Assembly (NCBI RefSeq): GCF_010389155.1
Contig: NC_057761.1
Span: 15,316,501-15,380,500 of the forward strand
DNA: 64,000 bases
Direction of reading: 5' to 3'
DNA from: Erigeron canadensis
Lineage: Eukaryota > Streptophyta > Magnoliopsida > Asterales > Asteraceae
A program made the translations under genes and the position numbers. The notes under the pieces were generated by a model, which saw only the letters and a program-made list of their open reading frames with translations, was not told the DNA's origin and made no database searches. Of the stretch, positions 24,400-59,999 are shown piece by piece. How positions within the stretch are numbered: position 1 is the first letter of the stretch; each line of letters begins with the position of its first letter.

Positions 24400-26527
24400 G
24401 TTTATAATTATAGACTCCAAAAGGTACATGAGACAATTCATGTCACATTCGATGAATCAAATGAGGCAATCAATAAAAGACTAAGCCTTGATTTATCTTC
24501 AGCTGACCCAGTTGATTTTGGTGTATCTGATCAAGTTCATCAATCAGTTTCTACACCAGAAGATGTTTCCAGTCATCAAGACTTGGAACCAGTTGCACAG
24601 AAGAAAATCTCCAGTGACACTCCATTTTATCCCTCCATCAGTTTCAATTTACCACAGAAACTGGTGATTGGATCAGATGTTCGTGCCACAACAACATCAG
24701 AACCAGTTCAGACTTCTCCAGTTCTTCAAAATATGCCTTTGTTTCAAAATATGCCTTCTCCAGCTGACACTGATGATGAAGTTGAAGTAGTTTGGGCTGA
24801 TCCATCTCCAGTTGCCACAACCGTTGAAGATCGTCAGGTGTCTTGCACTGATGTTGTGAAATATCAACCTAGTCAATACACTAAATGGACAGTTGCTCAT
24901 CCAATTGAGCAAATTATTGGAAATCTAGATAGTGGGGTTCAGACTAGAAGAGCCACAAGTGAACAATGCTTGAACGTTACCTTCTCATCACTGATTGAAC
25001 CGAAGAAGATTGATGAGGCTTTGGCAGATCCAAGCTGGGTTGAGGCTATGCAAGAAGAACTTAACCAATTCGAAAGGAACAATGTTTGGGAACTTGTTCC
25101 TTGTCCTCCAGGGTTAAAGAAAGAACCCATTGGAACGAGATGGGTCTATCGAAATAAGATGGATGAAGATGGCAATGTTGTCAGGAACAAAGCAAGATTG
25201 GTTGCCAAGGGTTATTGTCAAGCAGAAGGCGTTGATTTTGATGAAACTTTTGCTCCAGTTGCAAGACTTGAAGCCATTAGAATTTTCTTGGCTTATGCTG
25301 CTCATTTGCAATTCAAAGTCTTCCAGATGGATGTCAAAAGTGCGTTCTTGAATGGAAAGTTGGAAGAAGAAGTGTATGTTAAGCAGACTCCAGGGTTCTT
25401 GAACGAAAAGCATCCTCACTGGGTATATAGACTAAACAAAGCTTTGTATGGTCTTCGTCAAGCCCCAAGAGCCTGGTATGACACTCTAACTAAACATGTT
25501 CTTAATAATGGTTTTCAAAAAGGTGCAATAGATAATACCTTGTTTATCTTGAAAGAAAAAGGTAATATCTTGTTGGCACAAATTTATGTTGATGACATTA
25601 TATTTGGGTCAACTGATGATGGAATGTGTAGAAGGTTTTCAAAAATCATGTCTCAAGAATATGAGATGAGTTTAATGGGTGAATTAACATTTTTCTTAGG
25701 TTTACAAATTAAACAAACCATGGATGGTATTTTTATTAACCAAGAAAAATATGTCAGAGATTTGTTAAGAAAATACAAATATGATTCTATCCCATCGAAA
25801 ACCACACCTATTTCAGCTCCATTGAATTTGGATTCTGACCCAAATGGTAAACCAGTGGACCAAAAGGAATATCGTGGAATGGTTGGTTCACTGATGTATT
25901 TAACTGCCAGCCGACCAGATATAATGTTTGCAACATGTCTATGTGCCAGATTTCAGGCCAATCCAAAAGAATCACATTTGCATGCTGTTAAACGCATTTT
26001 CAGGTACCTGAAAGGGTGCCCTAGCCTTGGTCTTTGGTATCCCAAAGGCTCAGGGTTAGATCTAATGGGTTATTCAGATTCAGATCATGCAGATTGTAAG
26101 ATTGATAGAAAGTCTACAACTGGTGGTTGTCACTTCCTGGGGGAAAACTGGTGAGTTGGACCAGTAAGAAGCAGACTTCGTCTCAATGTCAACTGCTGAG
26201 GCAGAGTACATTTCTGCGGCCAGTTGTTGTGCCCAGATTCTTTGGATCAAAAACCAGTTACTTGATTATGGTATGAAATACACAAGAACCCCAATCTTTT
26301 GTGACAACATCAGCGCAATTGCTATATCTCACAACCCAGTGATGCACTCAAAGACAAAGCATATTGACATCAGGTATCACTTCATTCGTGATCATGTTAT
26401 GAAAGGAGACATTGAAATATATTTTATCCCCACTGATAAACAGTTAGCTGATGTTTTTACAAAACCTCTTGATGAAAAAACTTTTAAACATCTCATCAGT
26501 GAACTGGGTATGTTAAATCCTCATTAA
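24400..26527 (+). pseudogene. reverse transcriptase and RNase H of element A, first copy
   Basis: In frame with the preceding segment. The linker is followed by the RT ([52 protein letters not shown], catalytic [10 protein letters not shown]) and RNase H ([45 protein letters not shown]). A frameshift at about 26145-26185 lies in a G run and is absent from the second copy around 30975, so it may be a sequencing error. The stop is TAA at 26525-26527. Apart from that and the 24397 stop the pol frame is open. Confidence 0.88.
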
Positions 26528-26551
26528 ACTGGAGAGGCCCTCCAGTTGAGG

Positions 26552-26632
26552 ATGGTCCAGGTGATCCCTGATTGGTCGGAGATTGAACGCCTTTGATGTA
26601 CTCAAAGACTAGTCATTGATCGAATGGATCAC
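26552..26632 (+). repeat. hairpin with conserved loop motif, element A
   Basis: GTGATCCCTGATTGGTCGGAG pairs, with bulges, with sequence ending GATCGAATGGATCAC. The loop reads ATTGAACGCCTTTGATGTAC (26582-26601), near-identical to motifs in elements C and F. A smaller perfect hairpin (AACTGGAG/CTCCAGTT, about 26527-26547) directly follows the pol stop. Confidence 0.65.
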
Positions 26633-26633
26633 A

Positions 26634-26652
26634 TTTTTAGGGGGAAAGACTC
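26634..26652 (+). promoter_or_regulatory. internal polypurine-like tract between pol and env-like gene
   Basis: TTTTTAGGGGGAAAGA resembles the terminal PPT at 36087-36100, but it lies about 600 bp upstream of the env-like start. A copy lies near 31467. Function inferred only. Confidence 0.45.
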
Positions 26653-27237: not shown

Positions 27238-29613
27238 ATGGCTCCAAAATCATCATCTTCTTCATCTCGCTCTTGTGATGTGAATCTACTCACTGTCGAG
27301 TATAATCCATCCGAAAATGTTTCTCATGCTGTTGGTGCCCATATAAGTTCAAAATTAATAAAATTAAATCCAAACAATCCAATGTCATCTCTTTAAGGGC
27401 ATCAGGCCGCTGATTCTCTCATTGGGAAAATCCAATCCTTTCTTCGGGATTCTCCCCTCAGCGATGCCTTTTCTATGAACCCAAACAAGTTGTTTCATGA
27501 TTACTTGTGCGAGTTCTAGTACACGGCGTCCAATTCTGATGACTGCTCATCCATCTCCTTCACTTTAAAAGACGAGTCAGTCCCGTGTACCATCACCACT
27601 GAAACATTGAGGGAGGCCCTTAACCTCAATTACTGGTTACAAGATGAGAGTCCAGTGGTGATTTCTCCTAATATCAACTTCCGTCAGGTCTTTCTTGACA
27701 TGGGGAATAAAGAAGTCTTGGAGGGAGGTGTACTGAAGACCAAAGGATCAATTACTATGAGAGGGCTTTCACCATCCTGGAAGTACTTCATGGTCCATTT
27801 GGTGGAAAGTTTAGGTGGGAGTTCAGGTGGTTTGGACCAGATAAACTCTTTTCAGGCAGAGATGGCATACTGCCTGTGGAATGGACTAAGGGTGGACTTC
27901 GCAAACATCCTGTTTAGAAGCTTGGTGTTTAAGTTAAAAGGCAACAGGGGTCCTTGTATCCCATTTTCGCGATTTCTATCCCTTTGTTTCATACTAATTC
28001 TGGGCAGAGAGGAATACAATAACACGCAATCATTATACTCTGTGCCAGAATATTAAGAAATCTGGACAACCTTGTGTCCACATCTGATGAAGTCCAGATT
28101 TCACCAAGAATGCTACTGGCATTCTTTAGAACTGATGCACCACCACCAGGTAAGTCAGAAAGACAACTGGGCGGGCCTCAAAATAATGAGGGACCCACCA
28201 TTTGTCTGCAGATGCTGTGACTGTTGCAAATGCTGTGACTGTTGCAGAACCTGGAGATCTCCCCTCAGGCATCCAGCGGTTCCAAAGGCAAGAAGATCTA
28301 CCAAAGTAGAAGGAGATCTAGATCAGGACTTGCTATATCTGACCAGTCACAGCCAGTGATCGTGGTCTCTGAATCACAAGCCCATGATATTGCAACTGAG
28401 AAAGAGCAGTTGTAGTTGAGGCTCCAGTTACCTCTTTTCAGGGAGAAGATACTTCGGAACGGATCCTATAACTGATGAAACCATTGAGGAAACTCAAACT
28501 GGTCATCAGGAGTCTGAACAACCTGTTCAGCCACCCCCAACATTTATGGATCTTGGCATAAATAAGGGTGAGTTTCAGCTTGAATCTTCAGATTCATCTG
28601 AGACTGAATCTAACCAGGAGATGGCTGATGCAACTGTACTTGATCAGCTCCCTTCTCTCCTTGGTCAGCCCCAAGAACCACAAGTTTCAGTTTCACCACT
28701 TGACTTCTCCTCCTTACAAGAAATTTCAACATTCGCCTCTCGACAACTACTTTCATCCATGAATGTGCCTAGAAATAGACACATTCTTACACCACCGTCG
28801 CCGACGTTCACACCTGAGCATTCTCAGCATGAACGTCACATTGAATCTCTTTCCCTTCCTTCTTCAACAACTTCTATTCCTTCAGCTGGTGCAACAACAA
28901 CTGGAGAAACTTCACTTTCTGTACCTCCTGTTGTATCTTTGCATTCCGAGCAGGTCCAGTGGCACCTTCCCCTCCGTCACTGGACACCCAGTTCGTGTCT
29001 TTCCAAACCGATATCTCAACCTTTTAACAAGGGTGGAAGATATTCAGAAGACACTAGACAGAATACCAAGTCCCTCTCCAAATACTACAAGGATCACATT
29101 ACTAATGTAAGGGTGGTTGATTGGGGATTAAAAGTTCTCTGGCAATGAGGACTTGGTATTCAGGAAGCTCAATGAGTTGGTCATCAGCTGCAATTCACTG
29201 GCTTTCTTTAAAGGAAGCTTTTGACTTAACTCAATCAAAGGTACACACATCCATCACCAACCTGCTGAATAATACTGTCAGATCATCAGAGGTTGAGTTG
29301 ACCAATTAGAAAGACAGGTCAAATTACTTTTGAAAAACCTGGTCGGATGTTGTTGAGCTTGGCAACCAGTTGGCCACTTCAGTTGGTCAGAAAATTGAAA
29401 ATACCTGGCTGAAAGGGAGAATAATTTGATAGAAAGGGTGATATCTGAGATCACTAAGATTGCAGTGCCTCAGGTGATTTCACCCCCATAACATTGAGAT
29501 CAATCAGTTGAGGTGCAGTCTGGATACATTAGCCAGCAAGGTATGGCTCACACTACTGGCAATTGAAAAACTGACCACTGAAGCTGGCAAAGAAAAGGAA
29601 TAAAGTTGGAAAG
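27238..29613 (+). pseudogene. env-like gene of element A, first copy, truncated at the gap
   Basis: It starts MAPKSSSSSSRSCDVNLLTV and reads in one frame to 28053, with TAA at about 27394 and TAG at about 27519. The part 27607-28053 (LREALNLNYWLQDESPV, ITMRGLSPSWKYFMVHL) resembles the globular N-terminal domain of Sirevirus env-like or extra ORFs. After a frameshift near 28040 it becomes Ser/Pro/Thr-rich (LTPPSPTFTPEHSQHERH). Single-base differences from the second copy grow denser toward the gap. No signal peptide or fusion peptide is seen, so the env label is positional. Confidence 0.7.
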
Positions 29614-31360: not shown

Positions 31361-32065
31361 CTGGAGAGGCCCTCCAGTTGAGGATGGTCCAGGTGATCCC
31401 TGATTGGTCGGAGATTGAACGCCTTGATGTACTCAAAGACTAGTCATTGATCGAATGGATCACATTTTTAGGGGGAAAGACTCAAAATATTTTCCAATTA
31501 AATTCGTTTTATTTGAAAATGCAACTGGAGGATCTCCAATTGAAACTGGCATCTGGAAAATCTCTCCTGTATACTAGTTTGGTCTTGTCTTAAACTGGTG
31601 GTCAACCAGATTTCATAACGTTATGTTTTACTTGGTGAATACTTGTGACACGTGATGATACTCGAGTGTTTGTATCACTCTCACAAACGTCACCTGACAT
31701 GTCTTACGTGTCAAGATTTTTGCTGAAAATTATTGCACTTTTATGGGAATTGTTGAAGTTAATGGTGAGTGGAATACCAGCCGTCATAGCATTAAATGCT
31801 TGATGGGAGGTATTAAATGTTTTTGAATTCTCAAAATTACTAAAAAATCAAATTTTGAAATTGTGTGTAAAATTTGGGGATTAAAATATCTTTTCGTATA
31901 TATATTGGTAATATTTTACTGCATATATATACCCCCACTAAATATTTTTTTTTTCTCATTTACTTCGCACAAAATTCCTTTCTTTTACTCTTCCAATCAT
32001 TCACAATTCGAGATCCCTTTCTCTCTTTCTTCTTTAAATCCAAAACCCTAAATCCAAAATCTCAA
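31361..32065 (+). other. pol-env spacer of element A, second copy
   Basis: It repeats 26528-27237, including the hairpin loop motif (about 31414-31436, one base shorter), the PPT-like AGGGGGAAAGA and the TATA/CT-rich leader. Confidence 0.8.
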
Positions 32066-35000
32066 ATGGCTCCAAAATCATCATCTTCTTCATCTCGCTC
32101 TTGTGATGTGAATCTACTCACTGTCGAGTATAATCCATCCGAAAATGTTTCTCATGCTGTTGGTGCCCATATAAGTTCAAAATTAATAAAATTAAATCCA
32201 AACAATCCAATGTCATCTCTTTAAGGGCATCAGGCCGCTGATTCTCTCATTGGGAAAATCCAATCCTTTCTTCGGGATTCTCCCCTCAGCGATGCCTTTT
32301 CTATGAACCCAAACAAGTTGTTTCATGATTACTTGTGCGAGTTCTAGTACACGGCGTCCAATTCTGATGACTGCTCATCCATCTCCTTCACTTTAAAAGA
32401 CGAGTCAGTCCCGTGTACCATCACCACTGAAACATTGAGGGAGGCCCTTAACCTCAATTACTGGTTACAAGATGAGAGTCCAGTGGTGATTTCTCCTAAT
32501 ATCAACTTCCGTCAGGTCTTTCTTGACATGGGGAATAAAGAAGTCTTGGAGGGAGGTGTACTGAAGACCAAAGGATCAATTACTATGAGAGGGCTTTCAC
32601 CATCCTGGAAGTACTTCATGGTCCATTTGGTGGAAAGTTTAGGTGGGAGTTCAGGTGGTTTGGACCAGATAAACTCTTTTCAGGCAGAGATGGCATACTG
32701 CCTGTGGAATGGACTAAGGGTGGACTTCGCAAACATCCTGTTTAGAAGCTTGGTGTTTAAGTTAAAAGGCAACAGGGGTCCTTGTATCCCATTTTCGCGA
32801 TTTCTATCCCTTTGTTTCATACTAATTCTGGGCAGAGAGGAATACAATAACACGCAATCATTATACTCTGTGCCAGAATAATTAAGAAATCTGGACAACC
32901 TTGTGTCCACATCTGATGAAGTCCAGATTTCACCAAGAATGCTACTGGCATTCTTTAGAACTGATGCACCACCACCAGGTAAGTCAGAAAGACAACTGGG
33001 CGGGCCTCAAAATAATGAGGGACCCACCAATTTGTCTGCAGATGCTGTGACTGTTGCAAATGCTGTGACTGTTGCAGAACCTGGAGATCTCCCCTCAGGC
33101 GTCCAAGCGGTTCCAAAGGCAAGAAGATCTACCAAAAGTAGAAGGAGATCTAGATCAGGACTTGCTATATCTGACCAGTCACAGCCAGTGATCGTGGTCT
33201 CTGAATCACAAGCCCATGATATTGCAACTGAGGAAAGAGCAGTTGTAGTTGAGGCTCCAGTTACCTCTTTTCAGGGAGAAGATACTTCGGAAACGGATCC
33301 TATAACTGATGAAACCATTGAGGAAACTCAAACTGGTCATCAGGAGTCTGAACAACCTGTTCAGCCACCCCCAACATTTATGGATCTTGGCATAAATAAG
33401 GGTGAGTTTCAGCTTGAATCTTCAGATTCATCTGAGACTGAATCTAACCAGGAGATGGTTGATGCAACTGTACTTGATCAGCTCCCTTCTCTCCTTGGTC
33501 AGCCCCAAGAACCACAAGTTTCAGTTTCACCACTTGACTTCTCCTCCTTACAAGAAATTTCAACATTCGCCTCTCGACAACTACTTTCATCCATGAATGT
33601 GCCTAGAAATAGACACATTCTTACACCACCGTCGCCGACGTTCACACCTGAGCATTCTCAGCATGAACGTCACATTGAATCTCTTTCCCTTCCTTCTTCA
33701 ACAACTTCTATTCCTTCAGCTGGTGCAACAACAACTGGAGAAACTTCACTTTCTGTACCTCCTGCAGTTGTATCAGTTGCATTCCGAGCAGGTCCAGTGG
33801 CACCTTCCCCTCCGTCACTGGACACCCAGTTCGTGTCTTTCCAAACCGATATCTCAAACCTTTTAACAAGGGTGGAAGATATTCAGAAGACACTAGACAA
33901 GAATACCAAGTCCCTCTCCAAATACTACAAGGATCACATTACTAATGTAAGGGTGGTTGATTTGGGGATTAACAAGTTCTCTGGCAATGAGGACTTGGTA
34001 TTCAGGAAGCTCAATGAGTTGGTCATCAGCTGCAATTCACTGGCTCTTCTTTAAAGGAAGCTTTTGACTTAACTCAATCAAAGGTACACACATCCATCAC
34101 CAACCTGCTGAATAATACTGTCAGATCATCAGAGGTTGAGTTGAACCAATTAGAAAGACAGGTCAAATTACTTTTGAAAAACCTGGTCTGGATGTTGTTG
34201 AGCTTGGCAACCAGTTGGCCACTTCAGTTGGTCAGAAAATTGAAAATACCTTGGCTGAAAGGGAGAATAATTTGATAGAAAGGGTGATATCTGAGATCAC
34301 TAAGATTGCAGTGCCTCAGGTTGATCTCACCCCCATAACATCTGAGATCAATCAGTTGAGGTGCAGTCTGGATACATTAGCCAGCAAGGTATCTGATCAC
34401 ACTACTGCAATTGAAAAACTGACCACTGAAGCTGGCAAAGAAAAGGAATAAGAAGTTGGAAAGGAAGCACCGGCAACTGGGCTCTCCCCAGATGATTTAA
34501 ATATACTTCAAGCGATTCAAAAGTGTCAAGACACCACTTGTGGAAATGTCATGACTCAATCTCAAGAGATTAATCATCTATGGTGGACAGTTCGCATGTT
34601 ATGTGGAGTCTTCAAAGAGTGCAAGAACATGCAATCGTGGCAGCCTCTAGATCGCTTGCCCTCCAGTCATGCCCATTTTAAAGATATTAGGCAAGGACTA
34701 GATGCTGCCAAGGGGGAAAGGTCTGTTCGTGTCCCTCGCACTCTAGTTGAAGCTTCAAGTTCAGGGAAGGAGATGGTTGTTGCTACCAGTACTGAGGCTG
34801 GTGAGCAGGTAATTGAATCTTTTGATGATGTGGTTAGGGGGAATGTGGATAAAGGAAAGGCCATTGCAACTGATGACTCTAAGAAACCTGTCGCCGATGC
34901 ACCTATTTTGGAAACTGGCAATATTGATCAATTGCCTCCAGTTACTGAAAGCGAAAGTCAGAAATTAGCAAGGGTTGGGTATCTGGTCAAGGAAAGGAAG

Positions 35001-37437: not shown

Positions 37438-40400
37438 TCAGTTCCTCCTCCTTCTTTTCTCAGCTCGTCTTTTCTTGTTCTTTCTTTTCTTGTAATCTTG
37501 AGCTGCTTTTGATGTAGATGGCTTATCTTTCATAGAATTCCAAAAAGCTCTTTTCTTGTAACTATTCCAAGAGTCATTCCAATACCTCTTAGGAATGAAA
37601 TGCCAGTTAGCACCTTCTGGACGTTCATCGGGCAATCTGATATTATCTTGAAAGTTAACTGGAGGAATATTATGAGGACCTCGTTCATGACTTGGATTCC
37701 AAAGAACCCATGAACCTGTCTCAGTATGAATAATTCCTTCTCTTGGTTTAATTGTTCTGGCAGCAATAAGATCTCTAACCCTTTGACGCATATCAATTGT
37801 CTCTTGGATCCTTCTTATGTGTCTTTCTCTTTGAATCTGGATGTTTTCATTTTCACTAGGATCAGGATTATCATGTATGGCTCTGAGAAAGAATAAACAA
37901 TATTTCAGAGTGCCATCTGAATACTTGGGAAAATCAGATGCACGAACAAAGATTTTTCCTCTGAAGCTGTTAATGAAAACGAATCCATCCAATTCTTATA
38001 TTGGATCTCCAATCTGATAAGAATTCAATTCATAACCTCCTGCTCTCTGATTTGGTCTCGTGAGATTGATTCTTCTTGTTCTCCTTTCTAGACCAATTTG
38101 GAAATCATTAAACTCATAATATCTGATTAAAGCCTGAATGTGACTCTTCAGAGCTTCATAAGCAAGGAGTTGATCTGGAGTCTTTGTAATCAAATGAGCA
38201 TACTGGTTGTAGAGAAAGAGGATGTCAGAGATTGGCAAGTATTGGAAAGATTCTTCATGAACAACATAAATGTGACCATCAGCTCTTTAAACTCTAAATC
38301 GGACAAGTCTTTGGTTCTGATTCTTGATAGGAGCAATCAATGTTAACACACTTGTAATTGGACTCTGGAACTGATTATACCACTCTTCACTTCTTACTGA
38401 ACTTTCAGCATTCATCATTTCTAAGTATGCATCCCTTTGATTTTGATGTCTGAAAAGAAAGAATGCTCTCAACCTATTCAAGGTCATGTTGAGTCTTTCC
38501 TCAGATGAGCAGTAAATTGGGAAGGCTCTTTCTTCAATGTATCTTGCCCTGCATACTAACTCTTCAGGTCTGACATTCAAATCTAGCATTTGTGCATAAT
38601 TCTCATACAAATACCCTTCATTGATTTGCCAGATTTTGTCTCGAGTGATTCTTGGATGTCTAATACCCATGCTAAGCTCTCTTGGCGTGTCAAGATTATT
38701 TGTATCTCTCAGATCATAGACAATCTCTTCAAAGATATCTTTCTCAAATTGTTCTTGAGACATAGCTGGTCTTGGTGGAGCATCATTAGAATCATCCGAA
38801 TCAGAATCACTATCATCATCAGTCCTATTCCCTGGTTGAAACGGATCAGGATCACTTGATTGATCAGAACTCGATGTAGTTGAGTAATAGTGAGAGATGT
38901 ATTTAATAAGCGGAGGCAGATCATCTGAATCAGAATTATGAACTTGATGAGCTTGAGATGATGAAGGAATATCTACACTTTGACTTTGATCTTGATTTCC
39001 TTCTGTTGTATCTTGAACACTTGCTTCTTGTGTTGTGTTATGACCTTTACCACTATCTTGAATATTCTCCCCCTCGGGTTGATCATCAGAATTTTGATCA
39101 TCCCGACTCCTTAAGATAGTGGCCGGTCAACATTGTTGTTCAAGCTCAGTTATTCTCTTTTGAAGAGCTTCAGTTTCAGCTTTATGAGTAGTATCAGTAT
39201 CCAAGAAATGTAGATATGAAATAATTGAATGACAGATGGCTTTCTTCGGTGGGTTCAGATTAGGCTCTTCAGATCTTAATCTACGAAGTACTGCCATAAT
39301 GAGAGTATTAGTGGATATACCACTTTCATGAAGCCTACTAGCAGTATAGTCATTCAAATAAGTATCACTAATATCAGATTCCGAAGAAGATGAAGAACTT
39401 GAAGAATAATCAGCAGAATCAGGATCAGGAAATGATTGTTGAATTGGAATAGTTAATGAAGCTGGAATTTCTGGTGGTGTTGGTGATGAAATTGGAGATG
39501 ATTGACTATTCGGTGGTGTTGATATGATTGGTTGAGAAGACAAAGGAGTAACGGTTGTAACAGTTGAAATATGAGGTGTAGTAGGTGTTGAGATTGGAGT
39601 AACAACAGATGAACCAATTCTAAGTGTACCACCAGTAAGCAATCTACGTGGTGAAGAACTGGTTTGAGCCATGGGAAGTTTACCAGTAATAGTATATCTT
39701 GAAGCACGTAATACACTTTCTTGTTCTTGTTCAATTCCTTCAACCAAATGAGTCACAAGATTACGAAAATCGGAGATAGTGTTACAACAACTGGAGATTC
39801 AGAAATTGGAGTATCAGAAGTAACAGAAGCTGGCACATCAGTAGTTCCAAGTGGTTCTACTGAGTGACCTGACGACATCATAACTGTCACAGGATTTCCT
39901 GTTGGTTCAAGAGTTTGAACAACAGTTGATGATTCGGCTTCACAACCAGAATCCTTTGGAAAGTGGACAAACATAACACCGGTGTCACTTAGATCAATCG
40001 TTAAACCCAAAGCACGAATAGCCGCAGCAAATGCTCGAGCTCGAGAGAGTTCAAACTGTCGCTAAGCCAATTCAGCTACACAGGTGCCTTCGTTCAAAGC
40101 TGGCATAATGTTAGCAATGGAAGGACTTCCAAACAATCCTTGAGAGGGCACTAAAGCCGAGCTCTCTATGTTTGTTCCGGCAGCATCACCTAGATGTGCA
40201 AATGGTACAACAATCAGTGTAAGTGTCCTAGGGGTTCTAGACAAACGTGCAGAAACGAAAGTCAAGAGAGGGGCAAATGTCTCTTTATCTTCAACATCCA
40301 CAGACTCTGAAGGAGACTGGGATGGATTTCGTGGATTTTGCCCATGCAGAAATGAGACGTCAGTCTGTAGAGAGACTTCCGAATGTCTAGTGGAGGTTTG

Positions 40401-41855
40401 ACCTTGCAAGAGTTGGGAGCTCTTTTCTTCTACCCTAGGTCGAACCCGGCGAGTATATGTGGTTTGGACTAATAAAAGGCCAACGTTTTCTTTATGCCTT
40501 ATACCTAGCCCGGACCTCTCATCCTCTCTAACATTTTCGACTCCTCCCTCATTTCCACCTTGTTCCTCCGGGATGTCCATGACATCATCAACAAATTGAT
40601 TGGCTTCATTATCAGATGAATCAATATCAGAATCAGCCACATCTTCTAGTTCAGCTCGTGAAAAACGATCATACTCAAAGCGAGATCTTTTGAATATTTT
40701 CTTTTTGATATTAACAGGAATGGACTTCCTGCGGCCTTGAAAGTATGTCGGTGGAGGAGATAGGAAAACATCTGTAGATATTGTTGATGAAGTAATATGA
40801 GTTGGTATTGATTGTGATTGAGGCATTGCTGGGGGTTCTGGTGTTAGAATTTCTGGAAGTGGAGTTGTTTGATATGGTGAAGAATGTCTTTGTGGTGATG
40901 GTGTTCTTGGTGATGGTGATCTTCTGATATTTGAAGTTTTAGGAGGTGGTGATCGAATAGGTCTTGGAGTCCCAGACTCAGAGATAGTATTCTCAGAAGA
41001 TGTAGGAGAAGAAGGTTCAACTGGTGTTTTTCTTTTCAACTGCTTTTTCTTTGAACGTCCTTTTTTTTTTCTTTTGTTGATGCACTTTCTTACTCAACTT
41101 TAACACAAACATTTCACCTTTTTGTTTCTTACTCTTTGGCCTACCTGAACTGGATTCACCCTCACTCTCTTTTCTTTTCCTGTTAGACCCCTCACTTGGC
41201 AACCTATGCACAACTTGGGTAGGAACCGGGAGGCTTTTTGGTCCCAGAGTTGTTCTAATCCAGTCCAGATATGCCTTCTTGGCATCATCAGAGTCGGGAA
41301 CCATATCAAGTAAAAATGATGGAATCAGATAAGAATAGTTAGGGATACCAGAGTCTCTAACAAACTTGAAAGGATGAGTAATAACTTTCCCTGTTTCAAG
41401 AAGTCTTGGAATATGCTTCTTGTTCCTGATTATACTTCGGAAAATTGCTGAGAGAAATCTTATGAAAGGAATATACTTCTTGGGAGCAGTTATTTTTCCA
41501 TTTACTGCAACTATCAGCTGATCCCAAAGAAGTTGAGCAATGTCGTAGTGCTGATTGAACACAAACCCATAAAATATGTACAACATTGTCTGGGTCAAAT
41601 TATCCATTCCTCTTGTATATGGATGAAAACAGTTGCTGAGAACAGAAAACACATAGTACCAAATTCTTTGTAACTTCTTCAGCTTGAAATCAGTTGTTTT
41701 TGTCAAAGGACCGTCATAGCCAAGTGATATCAAGGCAACAAACATCACATCATTTGACTCAAATACATCATAATCATTTCTCCCATTTGAGTTTGCTTCT
41801 GGTAGCCTTAAATATCTTCTGAAATCATCTAAATTGAATTCGATGTCATATGTAT
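37438..41855 (-). pseudogene. env-like gene of element B, frameshifted and 5'-truncated
   Basis: Segments read right to left: 41017-41748 (globular domain: SLGYDGPLTKTTDFKLKKL, YIPFIRFLSAIFRSIIRNKK, SGIPNYSYLIPSFLLDMV), a basic stretch NRKRKESEGESSSGRPKSKK resembling a bipartite nuclear signal, a Pro/Ser-rich segment 40062-41039 (RSPPPKTSNIRRSPSPRTPS), 39127-39756, 38287-38763, 37996-38238, and a C-terminal segment 37438-37992 ending KKRRAEKRRRRN. The protein implied exceeds 1,400 residues. The first part is homologous to the env-like gene in F at 60000-61496. No signal peptide is visible. C interrupts it within the block homologous to F's NTYDFEFNLDDF. Confidence 0.7.
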
Positions 41856-42174
41856 TGTATCAACACGATTTTATCATTTGAATTCACATCAACAATGGCG
41901 TTTGGTTAGTGTGTGTGTTCTTGGTGTTTGTGTGTTTTTAGAGAGAATTTGGATCAAGAGTGTGTTATTCAGGTGTAGTGGTATGAGAATTGTTCAAAAG
42001 TTTAGCCAGAGTTATGATTTCTAAGGAATTGAGGGCTATTTATAGTCTAAACTAACCAACTATGCTAATTATCACAATTAGCCCTTCAACCTTATAAATC
42101 ATCAACTCATGACTTAACAACAAGTAAGTCCATAATTTAAATTACAATGTATCACTATTTTTGGATTTCTAACA
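41856..42174 (-). repeat. 3' LTR of element C
   Basis: It is 319 bp and the inverted match of the D LTR at 48090-48411 (shared AACCAAACGCCATTG, TAAAATCGTGTTG). The TATA box is GACTATAAATAGCCC at about 42046 on the minus strand. C and D belong to the same family. Confidence 0.88.
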
Positions 42175-42854: not shown

Positions 42855-43023
42855 ACAAGTTGAATTTGGAAACCCTTGTAGTTTGGAATGAAATTGACAA
42901 ACAAACTTTGAAGAAGAATGATGAGTTGATGTCACAAATGAAATTTGAGATAAAAGAACTCCAAATAAACTTGAAAACTTCCAACAAGAAGCTGAATGAT
43001 AGTATCTCGAAAAGCAATTGAAA
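42855..43023 (+). pseudogene. coiled-coil linker fragment, inverted relative to element C
   Basis: The plus strand reads EIDKQTLKKNDELMSQMKFE and onward to a TGA at about 43021. The first part matches the coiled-coil ORF of element E (EIDKQTLKKNDELMSQ, 55534-56322). Here it lies antisense to C's own genes, so it is a rearranged piece. Confidence 0.65.
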
Positions 43024-44546
43024 CAACCAAACACAAACTTTTCTCCTTGTCCTTATCAATTATACTAATTTCTTCTCCTAATCAATAATCAATCATACTA
43101 TTTTCTCCCCCTCATAATGACAAAGTTGGGAACCAATGTCATTATGCAAACATTGATTGATTCGAATGTTAAAAGAAATAATCATGACTAAAATCTAGAC
43201 ATTATGCACATGGAGAATTATCAACCATCAAAACATCAATCTAACCAAATAAACCAACCCAATTGTTCCTATGGGTGACTAAAACGTAAGATTAAAGTTG
43301 TTGGGATAAACATTTTATTATGGTGTTGGTGTTTTCTGTGTTGGGGTGATGAGAAAAGAAACCGGATAAGAATGATCCGTTTGCATTCAAAAATCAAAAG
43401 GATTAATGAAATGACCGAAAGAAATGTATATCATTTATCGGATTTCCTATGTATTATTGAGAAATACACAAAGCAAACCTCTAACATAGTTTGGTCTATT
43501 GGCTTTTCAACCTCAAGATTGCTTCAAAGAATGTAAACCATGGTCAGTGTCACTTAAGCGTTCGATAACCATGTTCTACTATCCTTAAAGACTTTTAGGA
43601 AAAATCCAAGGTCACAATAGACTTCTTGTTAACTCAATAATTACAAAAATGCAATTATGAGACCTACTTTCAAAGTTGGAAATGATGTTAGCAATGGTAG
43701 GATTTCCATTTGATCATCGTGAAATATCAATTAAGATATCACTACAAATGTTCCGGCTTTATCACAAAGATAAGCATGTATATCACAAAGATATGACGTA
43801 AATGTGTCCTAAAGAATGAATAACGATCAAATTAATGATCAATCACGAGAGCTCTAGACACAAAGTGATCAAATGAAGTCGGGGACTGGAGCAGAGTGTC
43901 ACCCTTTTTCAATATGTTAGTCTTCCAAATGAAGAGTCAATAGAAATGAGAAAACCTCCGTGAGAAATAAAACAAGCATTTGTTAAGAAACACTTGAGTG
44001 GTTAGGTAAAGATGTGCATCGCTTTATTGGGTCCATGAAGGCTTCTTCAATATCGAGATATCAACAAATGACATCCGATAGAAATGTGTTTTACCCGGCG
44101 ATTTGAGAATTTTAGGGAAGGGTAATAATTCTTTTAACCCTTTTTTTTTCACAACATTATCACCATAACCTCTCACTTTTCGACTTTACTCCCTCCAACT
44201 TAGTTGCACAAATTCATCATCACTCAAAAATACCCTCACTTTCTAATGAAAGAAGTGAATACTCCGGGGTTAGAACTCATCGGCGATGATGAAATTCATG
44301 GAGTATATTTTTGAGAAAAACCTAGTCGCTCATGTGCAAACTAAACACCGAACTTCCTTTGAAAAAAAATTCATCAAATGTGAAAAAAAAATGTTTAAAC
44401 AACACATTTGAAGTTTGAAAGAGATTTGAAATCACAAACTCCCCCTTAATCTATGCAAAGATAGATCAAAAAGATTTTCATAGAAAAGATGGAGCAAAAA
44501 TGATTTGTGTGAAATTAAAACAAGTTTTATGAAAAGTGAACTTAAT

Positions 44547-44747
44547 CAATTGTTCAAGATGAGACAACTCGGGAGTACACAAAGGCGTTCAATCCTTTGC
44601 TTCTCATATCAACAATTGAGAGTTTTTTGAAACAGGTGTAACAAAATTACAATCAACATCTTGTATTACACATATACATTCATATAAGACCACTTGGAAG
44701 TACACAAAGGCGTTCAATTCCGCGTTATCTTATATCAATTTATATGT
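44547..44747 (-). repeat. two hairpins with the conserved loop motif, element C
   Basis: Hairpin 1 has arms 44547-44564 and 44602-44618 (CAATTGTT...GATGAGA against its complement) and loop motif 44573-44592. Hairpin 2 has arms 44669-44688 and 44728-44747, with about three mismatches in 20, and loop motif 44698-44717. On the minus strand both loops read TTGAACGCCTTTGTGTACT. The copies are about 126 bp apart. Confidence 0.75.
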
Positions 44748-44804
44748 ATAATAATCATGAATTAATTCCAATTTTGAAACATAAATAATTTTCTTTTTAA
44801 AACC

Positions 44805-45134: not shown

Positions 45135-48089
45135 TCAAGGATCAAGATTTAGCATACCAAGTTTAGAGATTAAGAAATTAAACCTCTGGTCGTCCAGTGG
45201 TTTTGTGAACAAATCAGCGAGTTGGTAGTCAGTTCCCACGAAGTAGAGTTCGATGTCACCTTTCTCAACATGATCTTTGAGAAAATGATATCTCACATCA
45301 ATGTGCTTTGAGCGTGAGTGGTTGACTGAGTTGACATCAATTGCAATGGCACTTTGAGAATCACGATAGATAGGGATACGATCATATTTCAGACCATAAT
45401 CGGTAAGTTGTGTTTTCATCCATAACACTTGAGCACAGCAACTAGCAGCAGCCACATATTCAGCTTCCGCTGTTGACAGTGATATACAATTTTGCTTCTT
45501 GGATGACCAACTTACAATCTTTTCCCCTAAGAATTGTAAAGTACCAGATGTGCTCTTGCGATCAAGCTTACAACCTGCATGATCTGCATCTGAATAGGCA
45601 GTTAAATTGAATCTAGTATCCCTTAGATACCAGAGACCGAGATTGGGTGTACCCTTCAGATAACGAAAAATTCGTTTCACAGCTTGGTAATATAAATCAG
45701 TAGGAGCAGCTTGATACCTAGCACACATACATGTTGCAAACATTATATCTGGGCGAGATGCTGTAAGATACAACAACGAACCAATCATGCTTCTATACCT
45801 CTTTTGGTCAAATGGTTTCCCATTTTTATCAACATTAATGTTTGTACGAGCAGCCATTGGAGTTGAAATTGAAGAACATGTAGTCATATCAAACTTTTTC
45901 AACATATCCTTTATGTACTTACCTTGTGATATAAAGATACCAGTTGGTAATTGTTTGATTTGTAATCCCAAAAAGTCATCAACATATATTTGGACAAGTA
46001 AAACATGTTTACCTTGCTTATGAATAAACAGGGTAGGATCAATAGTACCTTTGGAAAGCCTCCTTTGAGTAAGAAAGTAGATAAGGAATCATACCATGTA
46101 GATAAGGAATCATACCATGCTCGGGGTGCCTGCTTCAAACCATAGAGGGCCTTGTCTAACCTGTAGACATGGTTTGGCTTCTTAGGATCAACAAAACCTT
46201 CAGGTTGCTCCACGTAAACTTCTTCTTTGAGTTCTCCATTCAAGAATGCTATCTTCACATCCATTTGAAACACTGTGAAGTTTCTGAATGCGGCATAAGC
46301 TAAGAATATACGAATGGCCTCCATTCTTGCAACAGGAGCGAAAGTTTCGTCAAAATCCACACCAGGTTGTTGGCAGTAACCCTTTGCAACCAATCTAGCT
46401 TTGTTCCTTACTACAACTCCATTTTCATCCTTCTTGTTCTTGAAAATCCACTTGGTGCGAATTGGTTCTTATTTCCTTGGATTTGGAACCAATCTCCATA
46501 ACTTTAGTCTTTCAAACTGAGCTAATTCATCTTGCATTGCTTTAACCCACTCTGGATCACAAAGAGCTTCAGAGACAGTTTTGGGTTCGATGTTACTCAG
46601 TGAAAGTGCAACAAGACACTCATTGACTGTAGTACGGGTGGAAACACCAGCTTGTGGATCTCTGATGATCTGTTCTGTAGGATGATCTTTGCGCATACGT
46701 GACCACTTGTTGTCATGAGGAAGAGGATCTTGTTGATGAATGTCAACATTATCATCATTAAATCCAGAGTTCTGTTGAGAAATGGAATCATAGCTTGGAA
46801 GAACTCTTTCCTCAAAGTTTGGATGATCAAAATCCAGTGGTACATACACATTTGGAGTATTTGATGGATTTGTTGTTTGGGTGATTTGAGAAGGTTGTTC
46901 TTGAACATTCTTTTGAGAATAAATATCACTTGAAGGTGATTCTTCTTGCTCTGCAGAATTTGAAGATGATTCATGATAGTTATCAGGAACTGATTCATTT
47001 GTTTGAATAGGGTCTTTGTTCGGAATTGGTTCATTGATGACTTGAGGTTCCTTTTCTTGAATCGGTTTTGAGTTGTAGAATTCTTCGAAAAGAATATCTA
47101 GCTCTTCACTTGTTGGAGTTGGATATTTCTTGAACTTTGAAGCTAAGGTAGACGTCCTTGAGGAAGCACTTGAAGTACTTGGATCACTAATTGTTGGTAG
47201 CAAACTTTCTTGTTCAAATATCATGCCAGACATCTTGTCAAACCAAACATTCATGGTTTCTTGAATCGTGTTTGTTCGACGATTGAAGATGCGATATGCA
47301 ATCGATGTCTTTGAGTAACCTACAAAGTAACCTTCGTCACCTTTCCTTTCAAACTTTCCAACATTTTCCCGATCATTCAAGGTATAACAGACACACCCAA
47401 AAATATGGAAGTAACTGATGTTGGGTTTGCGTTTGTTAATAACCTCATAAGGAGTCTTCTCATGACGCTGATTGATGATGGACGAATTTTGAGTGTGACA
47501 GGCAGTGTCAACAACTTCAGCCCATATGTTTGATGGTAACTTGGAATAAGCAAGCAGTGTTCTTGCTGCTTCCACCAGCGTACGGTTTCTCCTTTCAACG
47601 ACACCATTTTGTTGCGGGGTACGAACAACAGAGAATTGGTGAGTAATGCCTTTCGATTTGCAAAATTCATTGAAGATGGCATTTTTGAACTCAGTACCGT
47701 TATCCGAACGGATATATCGGACAGGAAGTTGAAGATTCACTTGAGTGGAAGTGATGAAATCGATCAAAATTTGAGTTGTTTCATTTTTTGAAGCAAGAAA
47801 CTTGACCCAAGTGTATCTTGAATAATCATCAACAATAACCAGAATATATCTCTTCCCGTTTCTGCTTTGTACTTTCATAGGGCCACAAAGATTCATGTGA
47901 AGCAAATGAAGAGGTGCCAAAGTGTGTGGAATTTTCTTTGGTTTATGAGAAGTTCTCTTGATCTTCCCAACTGCACAAGAAGGACAGACATGCTCACTCT
48001 CATATTTGTAGTCAGGCAAGCCTATAACAAGTTGCTTGTTGACTAAAGCATTGATGGTTTGATAATTCAAGTGAGAAAGCCTCCTATGC
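45135..48089 (-). pseudogene. pol of element C (integrase, RT, RNase H), broken
   Basis: Read on the minus strand it enters at the integrase finger (HLNYQTINALVNKQL ... CPSCAVGKIKRTSHK). The first catalytic Asp is replaced: LHMNLCGPM, where D has LHMDLCGPM; the other two are present (RSDNGTEF, QQNGVVERRNRTLVE). A stop at about 46470 replaces a Glu codon before RT. The RT part 45911-46393 carries a 21-bp tandem duplication (WYDSLST twice, 46076-46117) and a frameshift before YVDD. RNase H 45135-45971 is open ([22 protein letters not shown]). Not functional. Confidence 0.88.
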
Positions 48090-49573: not shown

Positions 49574-51676
49574 ATGACTACTCGTGAAGCATTGTCTCTG
49601 GGTACTGATACAAGACCACCAGTTCTTTATCGTGGTAACTATGGACTTTGGAAGAAAAGGTTCATGGATTATGTGGAACGTCAGACAAATGGTCTCATGC
49701 TTAAGGACTCAATCATCAATGGACTTGCTATGCATCGTCATCCTACTACCCGTGCTATTTTGACTCCTGATCTTTTGAACGCCGAACAAAGAGATCGTAC
49801 TGCTGCTGACAACAGAGCTAGATCATGCTTGTACCAAGCACTTCCTGATGAGATCTATGGCTCAATTGATTCTTACGACACAGCAAAGGAGATTTGGGAT
49901 GAAGTTGCTAGACAAATGGAAGGTTCTAATGTAACCTCAACAATTCGACTGACAAATGTCTTAACTGAGTTTGACAATTTTCAGAAATCACCAAATGAAA
50001 ATCTTGAGTCCGTGTAATACAGATTCTGCAATGTGATCAATGAACTAAGAAAGAACAAGGTCAAGAAAGATGAGATTGAGCTGAACATCAAATTTATCAA
50101 AGCACTTGGTCCCGAATGGGAAGATTATGGAACTCAAATCAAGCAACATCAAGACCTGACCAAATTCACCATTCATACTCTTTATGAATCTTTCAAGTTG
50201 AATGAGAGCAAGGTTCTGAGCAAAAATTCATTCAACAAAGTGCCAGAAGTTGTATCTACTGATCCTTTGGCATTGGTTGTTGAACGAAAGGTTTCTGAGG
50301 CTCTTAAAAGACAAATGACTATTGTTTCTTCGTCTGATGAGGAGGGAGAAGATTACTTGACTCCAGGAGATGGTGTTCCTGATGAATTCTACCAAGCTCT
50401 TGCCGCTGTTACCAAGCATTTCAAGAAAAAGTATTTCAAAGTGAGGCCAACTAACAACAATCTTCGAACTTCATCAACAAGTGCATTTCCAAAGAAGGAA
50501 CAATATCATCACAAGAGTTTTGAACAAGGTGAAACAACTGTTTCCAAGAAAAGAGACAAGAAAGCAGAAAATGAGAAACAAATCATGGAAAAAGAAAAGA
50601 CATCTGACAAAAAGTGTTACAACTGTGGAATTCCTGGTCATTTTGCTGTGGATTGCAAGCTGCCTCGTAAGAAGGATTATGCATACTACAAGCAGAAGAT
50701 GCTTCTAGCAAAGCAAGTTGAAGCCGGTCAAGCCTTGATTGCTGAAGATGACAAGTGGCTTTTACTTTCTGATGATGAAGACGAAGATCTGTCTGCCAAT
50801 GTATGTTTCATGGCAAGGTTAAGCAAAGACAAAGTGTTGGAGGCTGACAACACTGACGAGGAATATCCCGATGATGAGGTAAATCTCGACTTTACTTTTT
50901 CATCAATTAAGGATAAAGAGTCTTGTAGAATTGGCTTATCAAACTTGACGAATCATTACACTTCTTTAGCCAACAAAAACAAGAAATTGAAAAATAGCAT
51001 TGTATTTTCAAAAAGGGAATACACAAAACTTCTTGAACAAAATTGTAAACTACTTTTTGAGTATGATGCTATGAAACAAGAATTTCAAAACTATAAAGAA
51101 CAAATGTTGGTTAAAGAATGTGAAATGAATGTGTCTCCTAACTCTAAGTTATTGAAAAAGTGTCATAATTTAGAAAAGACCATTCTTCATCTTGAAAAAG
51201 CCAATCAAGATATTGAAGTTCAAAAGACCAATGAATGGCTTCATGCAAATGCGAGACAAATGGATGTTGATATTCTGAATAAGAAGCTTCAAGAAGCTAC
51301 ACCAAAAACAATTGAACTTGAAAGAAAAGTTTCTGATTTAAATCATAACTGTTTTTTAAAAGGCATTGAGATTGAAAATCTTGGAAGACAAATTGAGGAA
51401 CATAAAAAGAATATACTTTTCTATCAAGAAAAGTTGTACAAAGTTGAACAAAACCCTCTTTTGGATTTCACTGCCTATTTTAATAAGTCAAAAATTGATA
51501 GATCAGAACTTCTTCTTGGGTTGGGATTTGAGAATATCACTCCATTGCAAAAAGCCAAAGACAAGATTGAACCCTTGTATGATGAAAAGTTTTTGAGACT
51601 TGGTATGGTTCAACAATTCATTTGTCCATTGGATGACGAATTTGAGACTGTTGAAGTTGAGAAAATTTCAAAATAA
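49574..51676 (+). pseudogene. gag of element D
   Basis: It starts MTTREALSLGTDTRPPVLYR at the first ATG after the leader. The copia gag domain (YGLWKKRFMDYVERQTNGL, AKEIWDEVARQMEGSNVTST) is followed by CCHC zinc knuckle CYNCGIPGHFAVDC near 50621-50662, then an acidic stretch (SDDEDEDLS) and a long coiled coil (NKKLKNSIVFSKREYTKLLE). One TAA at 50015-50017 interrupts an otherwise continuous frame of about 700 codons. Structural particle protein. Confidence 0.85.
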
Positions 51677-54310: not shown

Positions 54311-54564
54311 TGTTATAAACAAATTTAAGCTAGATTTGTGCAATTTATGGAGTTTGTGTTTAAAAAGGTGTTTGTGTGTGTATGGAGGTTAGGGATGAAG
54401 ATTAGAGATAAAATGTGTGGAATGTGTGTGTTTTTAATTTAGAAATGGTAAAAGTCTTACAAATTAGGTGTGGAAGGGGGTATTTATACCATAAATCTAA
54501 GATTTCACTAATGCCCCTTCCATCTCTAAAATATTACATTTTAACACCATTTTTAGGTCTAACA
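54311..54564 (-). repeat. 3' LTR of element E
   Basis: It is 254 bp, TGTTATAAAC...GGTCTAACA, with a TATA box GGTATAAATACCCCC at about 54485 on the minus strand. Its last 104 bp recur at 61538-61641 and its first 30 bp at 57514-57543. Confidence 0.88.
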
Positions 54565-55240
54565 TTCTTCCCCTTGGTGTTGAAATGTAATTCAACGTCT
54601 TTAAATACGAATTTGTTGATGAAGGTCTTCGAAGCTTTCTCATTGTCTTCAAGATCTTCCATCAAACTAATCTTTTCAGAGTAAATGCACTGCGGAAAAT
54701 GGATTTGGCTCTTGAGTTTTTAAAACACTTTGCGGAAGCTTGATCTTGGCTCTTTTAGATTTGAACATGAAAGCATCTTCTTGACAATCTTAACTTTGTC
54801 ACACTTCCCCTTGATTAATGAATCTCTCTCTTGAAGCATTTAGACAAACATTCTTCTTCATCACAAACTTCCCCTCGATCAAAAAGTCATATTTGTGTAC
54901 CACCAATGCTTATGTATAGGGTGTACCCGCGGCGTACCCACCACGTTAGAGATAGTTTTCTTCAAAGAATCAACTTGGGGTCATCCTTATTAATATATCT
55001 TCTTACTTCCCCTCAAATGATGAACTTTCTTGTTTCTCCCCATCAAATTTCAAGAAGACATTAAGGTCGTTCGACTTCATTGTTCTCTTTCTTCCCCTCA
55101 TGATGAATGTGTGGCTACATGTTCATCATGTTTCTTTGAAGTCGAAGCTGGGGAATCAACTATTATGAAGTAGTAATCCAATAAACAACATCTTTAGCCC
55201 GGGTTATACACTGACATGTGTATAAGCCATATTCATCGAA
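54565..55240 (-). other. 3' non-coding region of element E with repeated PPT-like tracts
   Basis: On the minus strand, AGGGGAAG-type tracts occur at 54565-54579 (the LTR-proximal PPT), and at about 54803, 54870, 55009 and 55091. One GGGTT...AAGCC hairpin lies at 55201-55228. It also contains the 39-bp segment 55052-55090 that reappears at 61497-61535. Confidence 0.7.
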
Positions 55241-56322
55241 TCACTTAACAACAACCTTTGGGACCCATTTTAGTGTAGACCCAATGGTTTTAGTCTTGAA
55301 ACTCCAAAGGAAAGTGTCATCGATTCGACGAATAGAATCTGCAATCCATAGAGGGTGAAAACTCGAAGTCGTTGAAAAGTTGAGTTTTCGTGGACGCAGT
55401 GGAGATGCAAAGACATTCACTTTTTGCATTGCAAATGGTTTTGGTGCAAGATCAAATAGCTCCCAAAATGAATATTTGAATGTCCTTGACTCAGTTGACT
55501 TGGGCTTATAAAATGACTTTGGCACAGTCTTTGTCAACTGAGCTTTTGCTTGAGAGATGAACTTGGTATTGTCTTCAAACGATAAGAATGGAATGAGAGT
55601 CTTTGTTCCATCAATATTTGTCTTCTGAGAGTACCTTCTATCCTTTTCCAAGGCATAGTTGGTAAACTGAGACACTTTACGGTTGGGGTTTTTGGAACAT
55701 CACCAATCTTGTAAGCAGGAGAACTACTCGATTGTTTCAGAAGAGCTTCAACTTTTGTATCAAGAGACTTCGACTTGAAAGATTCAATTCGACTTTCAAT
55801 CTTCTCAAGTTGTTTTTCAACCAAAGAACTCAAATCAGACAAAGAAATTGTTGACACTTCAGCCTTTATCTTTGAAGCAATAGTTGTTTCCTTCAAGAGA
55901 CGAGCTTCCAAGGATGAAACTTGTGACATCAACTCATCATTCTTCTTCAAAGTTTGCTTGTCAATTTCATTCCAAACTTTAAGGTTTTCAATTTCATCTC
56001 GAAGTTCTTTTATCTCACTTCTAAGCCTCACATTCCCAGCTTGAAAGTAGGTAATCTGTTCTTTCAGTTTGACATTCTCAGCTTGTAACGTGACTACTTC
56101 CCCTTGAAACTTTACATTTTCAGTTGCAATCGAATGAATCATTAACTTCATTACTTGACAAGGAGTTATTTCAGATTGCGAAAAAGTAGTCGTACAACAT
56201 GAGCACAGTCCACCTTTATGAAGTTTTATTTCAGATGAAGTAGGTGTCTTGGGTGAGGAAGTTAACCAAAAATTGAGGACGTAATCATTTTTGACCGAAT
56301 TTGAGATACTTGGACTTGTCAT
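55241..56322 (-). pseudogene. coiled-coil gene of element E
   Basis: The likely start is MTSPSISNSVKNDYVLNFWL (ATG at 56322-56320), although the frame is open to 56421. A Cys-rich GLCSCCTTTF is followed by a long coiled coil (VVTLQAENVKLKEQITYFQ, IKELRDEIENLKVWNEIDKQ) and a linker. A frameshift near 55680 leads to the end segment 55241-55675, which closes with STLKWVPKVVVK, the same end block as the gag-pol linker of D. So the only gene kept is a gag-pol-linker type protein. No enzyme domain. Confidence 0.65.
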
Positions 56323-56635
56323 TTTGTTGAGCAAAGGTGGAAAGAAATGAAAAGTATTGTGTTTTAAATTGAAATGAAGAGTTAAGAATTGAAAATTTTT
56401 GAATTTCAGGTTTCCCTCCAAATTTTGCTGTCGAAATATGTTCTTATGAAACTTGGAATTTCATGTAAACTTTGGATATCATGATCATACGAAAAATTTG
56501 ATAATTTCAAAAAAATATCGCCGAAACCGCGTCGAAAACGCACAAAAATGGACCGAAAATTTTTCGAACGCTACCAAACTTCAAATCTCCATGAATCATG
56601 CCATTTTTTTTTTTGAATTGGAATGATCTTGGTTG

Positions 56636-57500: not shown

Positions 57501-57511
57501 CTCTGATACCA
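57501..57511 (-). promoter_or_regulatory. primer binding site of element E
   Basis: The minus strand reads TGGTATCAGAG, two bases inside the 5' LTR, tRNA-Met type. Confidence 0.85.
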
Positions 57512-57513
57512 AA

Positions 57514-59930: not shown

Positions 59931-59999
59931 TATTCAAATATTATTTTTGTATGTGTTAAAAGTTTTTTTTTTGTCTAAATTCAGAAAATTATAAAAATA

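Follow-up and report, generated by a model that had tools for sequence, protein, structure and literature searches.

Does the 20-nt motif that recurs in three Sirevirus elements (A, C and F) of this stretch mark a conserved RNA structure, and if so, what might read it? In a preliminary description of the whole 64,000-nt stretch analysed here (the window), the motif had been placed in A, C and F between pairing flanks, always in the sense orientation. Seven hairpins carrying the motif were recovered, each within three bases of the position given there. In A, the motif matches lie at 26583-26602 (+), where one base is inserted (...TTTGATGTAC), and at 31415-31434 (+); in C, they lie at 44573-44592 and 44698-44717, both on the minus strand; and in F at 59651-59670, 59760-59779 and 59867-59886, all on the plus strand. 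For F the motifs and their strand were as described, but the coordinates (59650, 59757 and 59866) were one to three bases off, and the third match is more divergent than the others (GATCATCTTTGTGAAC). At up to three mismatches the window contains five matches, compared with 0.00 in 100 shuffles. The flanks of the motif copies do pair in predicted folds, and the A and C hairpins are on the strand of pol, while the F hairpins are on that of the env-like open reading frame, which bears out the sense orientation. The features concerned are the following, with the bit scores obtained with our model R1.

26539-26644 (+): hairpin A, span of the predicted fold, tip TTGAACGCCTTTGATGTAC, 46.2 bits
31371-31475 (+): hairpin of the second, near-identical A copy, tip TTGAACGCCTTGATGTAC, 39.1 bits
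44651-44767 (-): hairpin C1 of element C, 61.4 bits
44539-44624 (-): hairpin C2 of element C, 55.1 bits
43521-43592 (-): hairpin C4 of element C, second core form TCGAACGCTTAAGTGACAC, recognized by eye and by folding, R1 negative
59605-59715 (+): hairpin F1, upstream of the env-like open reading frame, 64.2 bits
59722-59816 (+): hairpin F2, tip with a swapped inner pair (GATC...GAAC), 64.8 bits
59834-59916 (+): hairpin F3, closing stem GAG/CTC, tip GATCATCTTTGTGAAC, 56.6 bits
26639-26646 (+): internal polypurine tract AGGGGGAA, immediately following hairpin A; the predicted fold has it paired at the base of that hairpin
44439-44446 (-): internal polypurine tract AGGGGGAG, downstream of hairpins C1 and C2
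24400-26154 (+): reverse transcriptase part of element A pol (RVT_2); RNase H similarity continues, in a broken frame, to ∼26518
45135-46088 (-): reverse transcriptase/RNase H end of element C pol
59979-60962 (+): env-like open frame of F, 62 bases past F3, first ATG at 60000, no Pfam match
27520-28056 (+): env-like open frame of element A; its second copy, 32348-32881, is without a Pfam match

The pol gene of element A ends with a TAA at 26525-26527, and hairpin A lies just after it. As the two A copies are near-identical, the window contains six distinct first-form hairpins, the number originally proposed; that count had, however, overlooked the second-form hairpin C4 at 43521-43592 (-). The treatment of F as one element could not be upheld, as its hairpins and env-like frame sit in an insert (∼54315-61641) that interrupts the integrase of a C-like Sirevirus copy, the integrase similarity resuming at 61642. 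A separate hairpin belongs to this outer C-like copy and lies 590 bases beyond the window end (contig C1:15381090). On either side of the window copy of the F insert stands a direct repeat of 108 bases (54457-54564 and 61534-61641). The insert also contains two overlapping open frames of 152 and 308 amino acids at 55241-56460 (-), for which no protein match was found in ten F- and E-type loci, the only match being a short one at window positions 42866-42940.

In the predicted folds, the hairpins are long and imperfect (∼70-115 bases), with the motif at the tip. Rather than the single open loop of 20 bases initially envisaged, the predicted tip consists, from the outside inward, of a UU or UC bulge in the 5' strand, a G-C pair followed by an A.A mismatch, an inner stem of four base pairs (ACGC/GUGU, including one G.U pair) and the four-base loop CUUU. 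The closing stems comprise three to four or more pairs (GGA/TCC, GGAA/TTCC, GAA/TTC, GAG/CTC or GGTA/TACC). Two forms of the tip were distinguished, a first form UYGA(A/U)CGC-CUUU-GUG(U/A)AC and a second form UYGAACGC(C)-UU(U/A)-(G)GUGACAC, the latter topping C4, the hairpins found right after pol in the H lineage and the type present in loci L117 and L118. The variant usual in A (the A form) has AUGUAC and a loop that is shorter; its predicted tip is larger and less paired than that of the standard fold. Model R1 was built on the first form and did not detect the second, so that the kinship of the two forms rests on the core letters and on the similar folds. A two-state switch based on CAAAGG/CCUUUG (in some C2 and C3 copies) or CACAAAG/CUUUGUG (in F2) was dropped, since such alternative pairing is absent in C1 and C4 and is hence not general. 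Mimicry of tRNA was likewise discarded, with ARAGORN reporting 0 genes in the window. The string CGCCUUU...UAC bears a likeness to loop I of U5 snRNA.

The host genome (426 Mb; a single plant genome) was searched with several patterns and with their reversed counterparts as controls. The 17-base core was found at 3,450 places with up to two mismatches (1,750 + 1,700), compared with 51 for the reversed pattern (20 + 31), and a 19-base pattern with four free positions at 1,574 places (800 + 774) versus 0 reversed. The second form gave 506 places (262 + 244) and the A form, which is two mismatches from the core, 490 (241 + 249), each versus 0 for the reversed pattern; the 490 are largely contained in the 3,450, and all these figures count relatives, not independent events. 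Within this genome, then, the motif is present in other family members in thousands of copies, and its absence from them, which the preliminary description had named as a ground for rejection, was not observed. Forty loci were sampled around the first exact matches on contig C1. Their surroundings were Sirevirus-like in all 40; same-strand protein matches to the gag, pol or env-like frames of the window Sireviruses were obtained for 37, and L068, L089 and L094 were linked to the C or F regions by DNA similarity. Thirty loci are C-type, eight F-type and two E-type, with one C-type locus (L095) additionally holding an A-type copy, and 27 of the 30 C-type loci have two or three motif hairpins. 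In the reverse direction, 13 C-type pol copies from contig C1 below 12.92 Mb were chosen by protein and not by motif; these are close relatives, drawn from the 150 best protein matches of 8,386 candidates. Twelve of the 13 keep the downstream hairpin sequence, 10 of them with exact hairpins listed within ∼0.5 kb, L110 with two hairpins by model and L109 with only the C4 form, while the fetched piece of the thirteenth, L108, ends inside a C4-like arm. Across the window and 43 loci, model R1 yielded 104 matches of at least 36.7 bits and no further ones up to an E-value of 0.1. A 24-base pattern had no match in GTDB genomes. The 16-base core occurred in 59 IMG/VR contigs, once per contig, which is about the chance level estimated for a collection of that size; none of these 59 folds like the hairpin (best R1 match 25.5 bits, E 0.009), and the pol of element C had no relative in IMG/VR.

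Altogether 110 motif-like places were collected from the window and the 40 loci, of which 100 were taken into the family analysis. Of the 10 left out, six are copies of a GATGGCATTTTTGAAC stretch, three are isolated matches and one (L104) is a truncated copy; the window copy of the GATGGCATTTTTGAAC stretch is antisense to integrase. Comparison of nine hairpin types (36 pairs) revealed a mean identity of 86% (67-100%) for the 18-base tip, but of only 38% for the arms and 31% for the further flanks, in agreement with the earlier observation that the arms differ while the loop is kept. The loop itself was CTTT in 98 of 100 places listed of 1,418 found with a search pattern that fixes the rest of the tip. 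A G.U pair was kept in 90 of 91 distinct aligned rows. Hand counting of 100 places listed of the 1,574 gave A-U in 89, U-A in 11 and a mismatch in 0 for the first free inner pair, and C-G in 89, U.G in 3 and a broken pair in 8 for the second. Among the types read, the U-A swap is confined to F2 and F3, and hence it may reflect one or two events.

These figures bear on the possibility that the motif owes its spread to chance, shared recent ancestry or one recent transfer. Copies within a type are indeed closely related, as this explanation would have it, but the shuffled and reversed controls stand against it, as do the arms and flanks of different types, which are near background identity. Its probability is practically negligible, and the single recent transfer that the preliminary description had considered is contradicted within this genome by the same arms and flanks.

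Covariation of the arms was assessed in 11 representatives and in an alignment of 91 distinct rows. In the representatives, 80.7% of cells were standard pairs versus 31-47% in slid versions, a comparison biased in favour of the structure, as this was drawn from the folds of the same sequences. Changes on both sides were seen in 12 of 17 pairs, compared with 4-7 in slid versions and a mean of 8.4 in shuffles, 3 of 500 being as high, and the covariation score of 0.411 (0.227 shuffled) was reached in 0 of 500 shuffles. The 91 rows, whose alignment was fitted to the model, scored 0.319 versus 0.198 shuffled, again with 0 of 500 as high. In both sets, the number of cells with both-side changes was reached in 0 of 500 shuffles. 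Other measures did not separate from the controls: the count of further pair types was equalled in 107 of 500 shuffles for the representatives and in 426 of 500 for the 91 rows, where sliding by +1 gave 32 against 31, and the number of pairs changed on both sides in the 91 rows was equalled in 64 of 500, with 11 against 12 on sliding by +1. Within single families, G.U and A.C deviations amounted to 32 and 22 distinct events, which is not significant and tells against a simple reading, and most copies within families look like decaying insertions. This within-family test used 4 of 11, 3 of 7, 7 of 8, 19 of 21, 23 of 25 and 20 of 22 members, divergent ones being omitted and families of fewer than five skipped; the criterion for family membership was loose (up to 26 differences in 60 arm bases), so that chimeric copies such as L086 were included. 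Between types, the outcome favoured pairing, as G.U outnumbered A.C at the pairs other than the fixed G.U, with 13 versus 7 in the 11 rows and 135 versus 68 in the 91 rows, the alignment of which leans to the model. Within this genome the arms thus covary above the shuffled and slid controls on most, though not all, measures, contrary to the lack of covariation against which the preliminary description had cautioned.

At L086:3548-3603 (+), a hairpin combines the left arm of C1 with the right arm of C2. We read this chimera as a deletion between neighbouring hairpins with its joint in the shared tip, and the joint may point to template switching at this site. Yet another type of hairpin, GCAAGTA TTGAACGCCTTAGTGACAC TGCTTGT, was seen at L117:80-200 (+) and in L118 (-); the stretch that contains it is possibly an open frame as well.

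Folding of both strands supplied a further line of evidence. Of 99 distinct hairpins belonging to the nine types, 94 folded better as the sense than as the antisense strand, and 88 had z below -2. Sense was also better in 11 of 11 A-form copies and in 8 of 8 C4 copies. In the H type, the first hairpin was sense-better in only two of six copies and the second in five of six; hairpin C2 of the window, folded in a longer stretch, was better in antisense (-25.1 versus -22.8); and for the A form, with its poorly paired tip, z was below -2 in one of two. Taken with the compensatory changes, found beyond controls if not on every measure, the thousands of copies and the nine arm types, these results support the proposal of a structured RNA element, and we hold with high confidence that the hairpins are structured RNA of the sense strand. 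What the computations establish for the first form are the hairpins themselves, with their number, position, orientation and covariation, and the conservation of the tip. Both the pairing and the tip letters of the sense RNA seem to matter. A feature acting as DNA or in silencing, such as protein-binding palindromes or small-RNA sources comparable to the LTR palindromes of maize Sireviruses, is by the same token very unlikely. It could draw on the excess of small RNAs that portions of a published study report at clustered-palindrome regions of maize Sireviruses (PMC10760457), but the conserved tip is not palindromic, the arms differ between types, sense folding exceeds antisense in those 94 of 99 hairpins and a G.U pair is kept in 90 of 91 rows.

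The arrangement of the hairpins within the elements was then compared among types. As first proposed from A, C and F, the arrays lie downstream of pol or upstream of an env-like gene, and in the loci read they are 3' of gag/pol. An array comprises one to three hairpins, or up to three plus a separate fourth in the C type, and neighbours are mostly spaced by 104-129 bases in all types. In the C layout, the RNase H end is followed after ∼240-690 bases by the hairpins, and then by C4, which a simple pattern found in 22 of the 30 C-type loci, and by more polypurine tracts further down. In A and H, one or two hairpins directly follow the pol stop, which is visible in five of six H copies, and are followed by AGGGGGA. 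The E layout (two loci, with pol in L069) consists of pol, polypurine tracts, 2 kb, two hairpins and env similarity, and the F layout of two or three hairpins and then env, with an env match in seven of eight loci and, for L089, DNA similarity only. F-type loci have gag upstream in four of eight and a pol match in none of the eight within the 6.5 kb read (∼3.5 kb upstream and 3 kb downstream); the elements concerned (L074, L075, L077, L083, L087, L089, L102 and L107), and with them the window copy, are perhaps non-autonomous. The env-like frame of F matches an Erigeron canadensis (Asteraceae) protein with 75% over 27% of the query, and four other matches are better; the Erigeron match suggests a host of the daisy family. 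A further env-like stretch minus its first ∼120 residues, at 37438-41859 (-), adjoins element C and may belong to an F-type copy that was divided when C inserted.

The hairpins accompany pol by itself in some elements and pol together with an env-like gene in others, and in a third group they accompany an env-like gene in whose vicinity no pol was detected. This argues against a role in expressing the env-like gene, whether by ribosome entry, by control of splicing or as the leader of an internal promoter. Such a role would fit the 62 bases between the end of F3 and the env-like open frame in the window, the E-type locus L069, where the hairpins are ∼190-300 bases ahead of the env similarity, and the RM-like palindromes just upstream in the window copy. 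However, 30 of the 40 loci are C-type and have the same kind of array with no match to the env-like queries in the ∼3 kb read past the hairpins, and the H arrays (pol stop in five of six) and A arrays come directly after the pol stop. With arrays present both with and without env, and both with and without nearby pol, expression of env is quite unlikely as their common purpose, and so is the private need of one pol.

The neighbouring polypurine tracts suggest another role, in which the hairpins would expose or shield the internal tract and thereby direct RNase H and the priming of the plus strand, in the manner of the inverted repeat found at the 3' LTR. In 22 of the 30 C-type loci, AGGGGGA follows the last hairpin at a distance of no more than 300 bases, compared with an average of 0.08 per 300 bases in these loci; it also occurs 34-35 bases past the A tip in seven of eight fetched copies and after the second H hairpin in five of six, and the predicted fold of A has the tract paired at the base of its hairpin. 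In contrast, none of the eight F-type and neither of the two E-type arrays has the tract within 300 bases downstream or 600 upstream, the tracts of the E-type locus L069 follow pol with the hairpins 2 kb further, and it is the tip and not the tract side that is conserved. We consider this aid to reverse transcription unlikely. In the two window A copies (26535-26646 for the one shown) and in some of L119-L126, the predicted partner of the tract is a CCCTC-like stretch at the base of the hairpin, and the tract would hence be hidden in the RNA.

Packaging offers a further interpretation. Tandem hairpins with a common tip are typical of packaging signals, and Gag, through its nucleocapsid part, might bind the tips and select the genomic RNA, the env-bearing elements that lack pol being packed with the help of pol-bearing ones. 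The F-type loci, which have hairpins but a pol match in none of eight and gag in four of eight, are as expected for elements that depend on a helper. The hairpins are, however, situated 3' of pol, which most known packaging signals are not. Furthermore, the Gag of A and that of the C-like outer copy (49628-50206) share 28.6% identity over 205 amino acids, whereas the tip is nearly identical in both. Dimerisation through kissing loops was rejected, the CUUU loop not being self-complementary. Recognition by Gag is thus a possible but on the whole rather unlikely explanation.

The explanation we prefer, at slightly less than an even chance, is that the hairpin arrays present a shared tip to a trans-acting factor and so aid export or stability of the unspliced RNA. 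The region behind pol or ahead of env would encode long imperfect hairpins in the sense RNA of these Sireviruses, each offering nearly the same tip on arms that are free in sequence but held to pairing, and a factor common to these elements would read that tip. Sequence-specific recognition of the tip is likely, and a trans-acting factor that recognizes it seems a better candidate than dimerisation or translation of env. The reader is probably a host RNA-binding protein, given that the tip is nearly the same in A and the C-like elements although their Gags share 28.6% identity, which makes a conserved host reader likelier than the elements' own Gag. Binding of the factor might then help to export or stabilise the unspliced genomic RNA, a tentative step with somewhat less than even odds. 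This step is proposed from position and analogy. Retroviral constitutive transport elements, which are located 3', aid unspliced RNA, and it is the 3' position and the repetition, shared with such elements and with the Evade ENE, that led us to place export or stability first, with packaging second and use of the polypurine tract third; the hairpins are not taken to be related to either of those elements. Whether the arrays form a new plant RNA family for transport or stability, read by a conserved plant RNA-binding protein, common to autonomous and apparently pol-less Sireviruses and preserved in its tip while almost all bases around it could vary, is more conjectural, and we regard it as doubtful for the present.

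If they do form such a family, Sireviruses would bring to light a pathway by which plant hosts handle unspliced RNA. The near-exact tip, present on thousands of copies, provides a bait for finding the factor that reads it, and allows a test for the existence in plants of a route for transport or stability that parallels the retroviral one; the shared tip can also serve as a marker for classifying elements without detectable pol. Sireviruses rank with the most abundant elements in certain plant genomes and make up ∼21% of the maize genome, the latter figure according to the abstract of PMC3599292.

As regards known features, the preliminary description had named no previously described Sirevirus element of this kind, and we found none either in Rfam or in the literature searched. 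No Rfam 15 family reached the gathering cut-off over the whole window; with lax filters, the best hits in 59600-59960 and 44520-44800 had E-values of 0.044 and 1.3, the former to mir-5014 (21.2 of 101 bits) and discarded as far below the cut-off. Literature searches for strings, conserved motifs, Sirevirus hairpins or palindromes and RNA structure, covering few subscription papers, gave no description, and the string search returned one unrelated paper only. The hairpin arrays look like an apparently undescribed RNA control signal of Sireviruses.

The features reported for Sireviruses in the sections consulted of Bousios et al. (2010; PMC2829016) are multiple polypurine tracts, RM palindromes, an inverted repeat at the polypurine tract, a TATA box, the LTR/PBS junction and an integrase signal; pieces of the motif did not occur in that text. 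The RM boxes, as those sections present them, are likewise repeated inverted-repeat motifs of non-coding DNA, some of them clustered upstream of the env-like gene. They are, however, palindromes of 10-20 bp with a CGG-CCG core except in Tnd-1, vary by element and are abundant in LTRs, whereas the hairpins measure ∼70-115 bases, have a non-palindromic tip common to the elements and are present where no env was found. By inspection, the tips are not palindromic and have no CGG...CCG. In placement, the hairpins are upstream of env in F and E and occur also without env similarity. Palindromic boxes AAACGATCT...AGATCGTTT, RM-like without the CGG-CCG core, are found beside the F hairpins at window positions 56748-57074 and 59142-59404. 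The inverted repeat of Ty1/copia elements around the terminal polypurine tract and 3' LTR is also a stem-loop near a polypurine tract, as is hairpin A with its tract in predicted pairing, but the conserved part of the repeat, as outlined in PMC2829016, is its arms, the repeat straddles the LTR junction, and upstream polypurine tracts are without it. The ENE of Evade/Copia93 is a structured RNA between the open reading frame and the 3' LTR that acts on its own RNA, and in this it is similar to the arrays; it grips poly(A) by U-rich internal loops with adjacent G-C pairs, as set out in parts of PMC12501189, and inspection of our predicted folds revealed no opposed U tracts of that kind. The constitutive transport elements and direct repeats of retroviruses share with the arrays their 3' location and their repeated hairpins with conserved unpaired bases.
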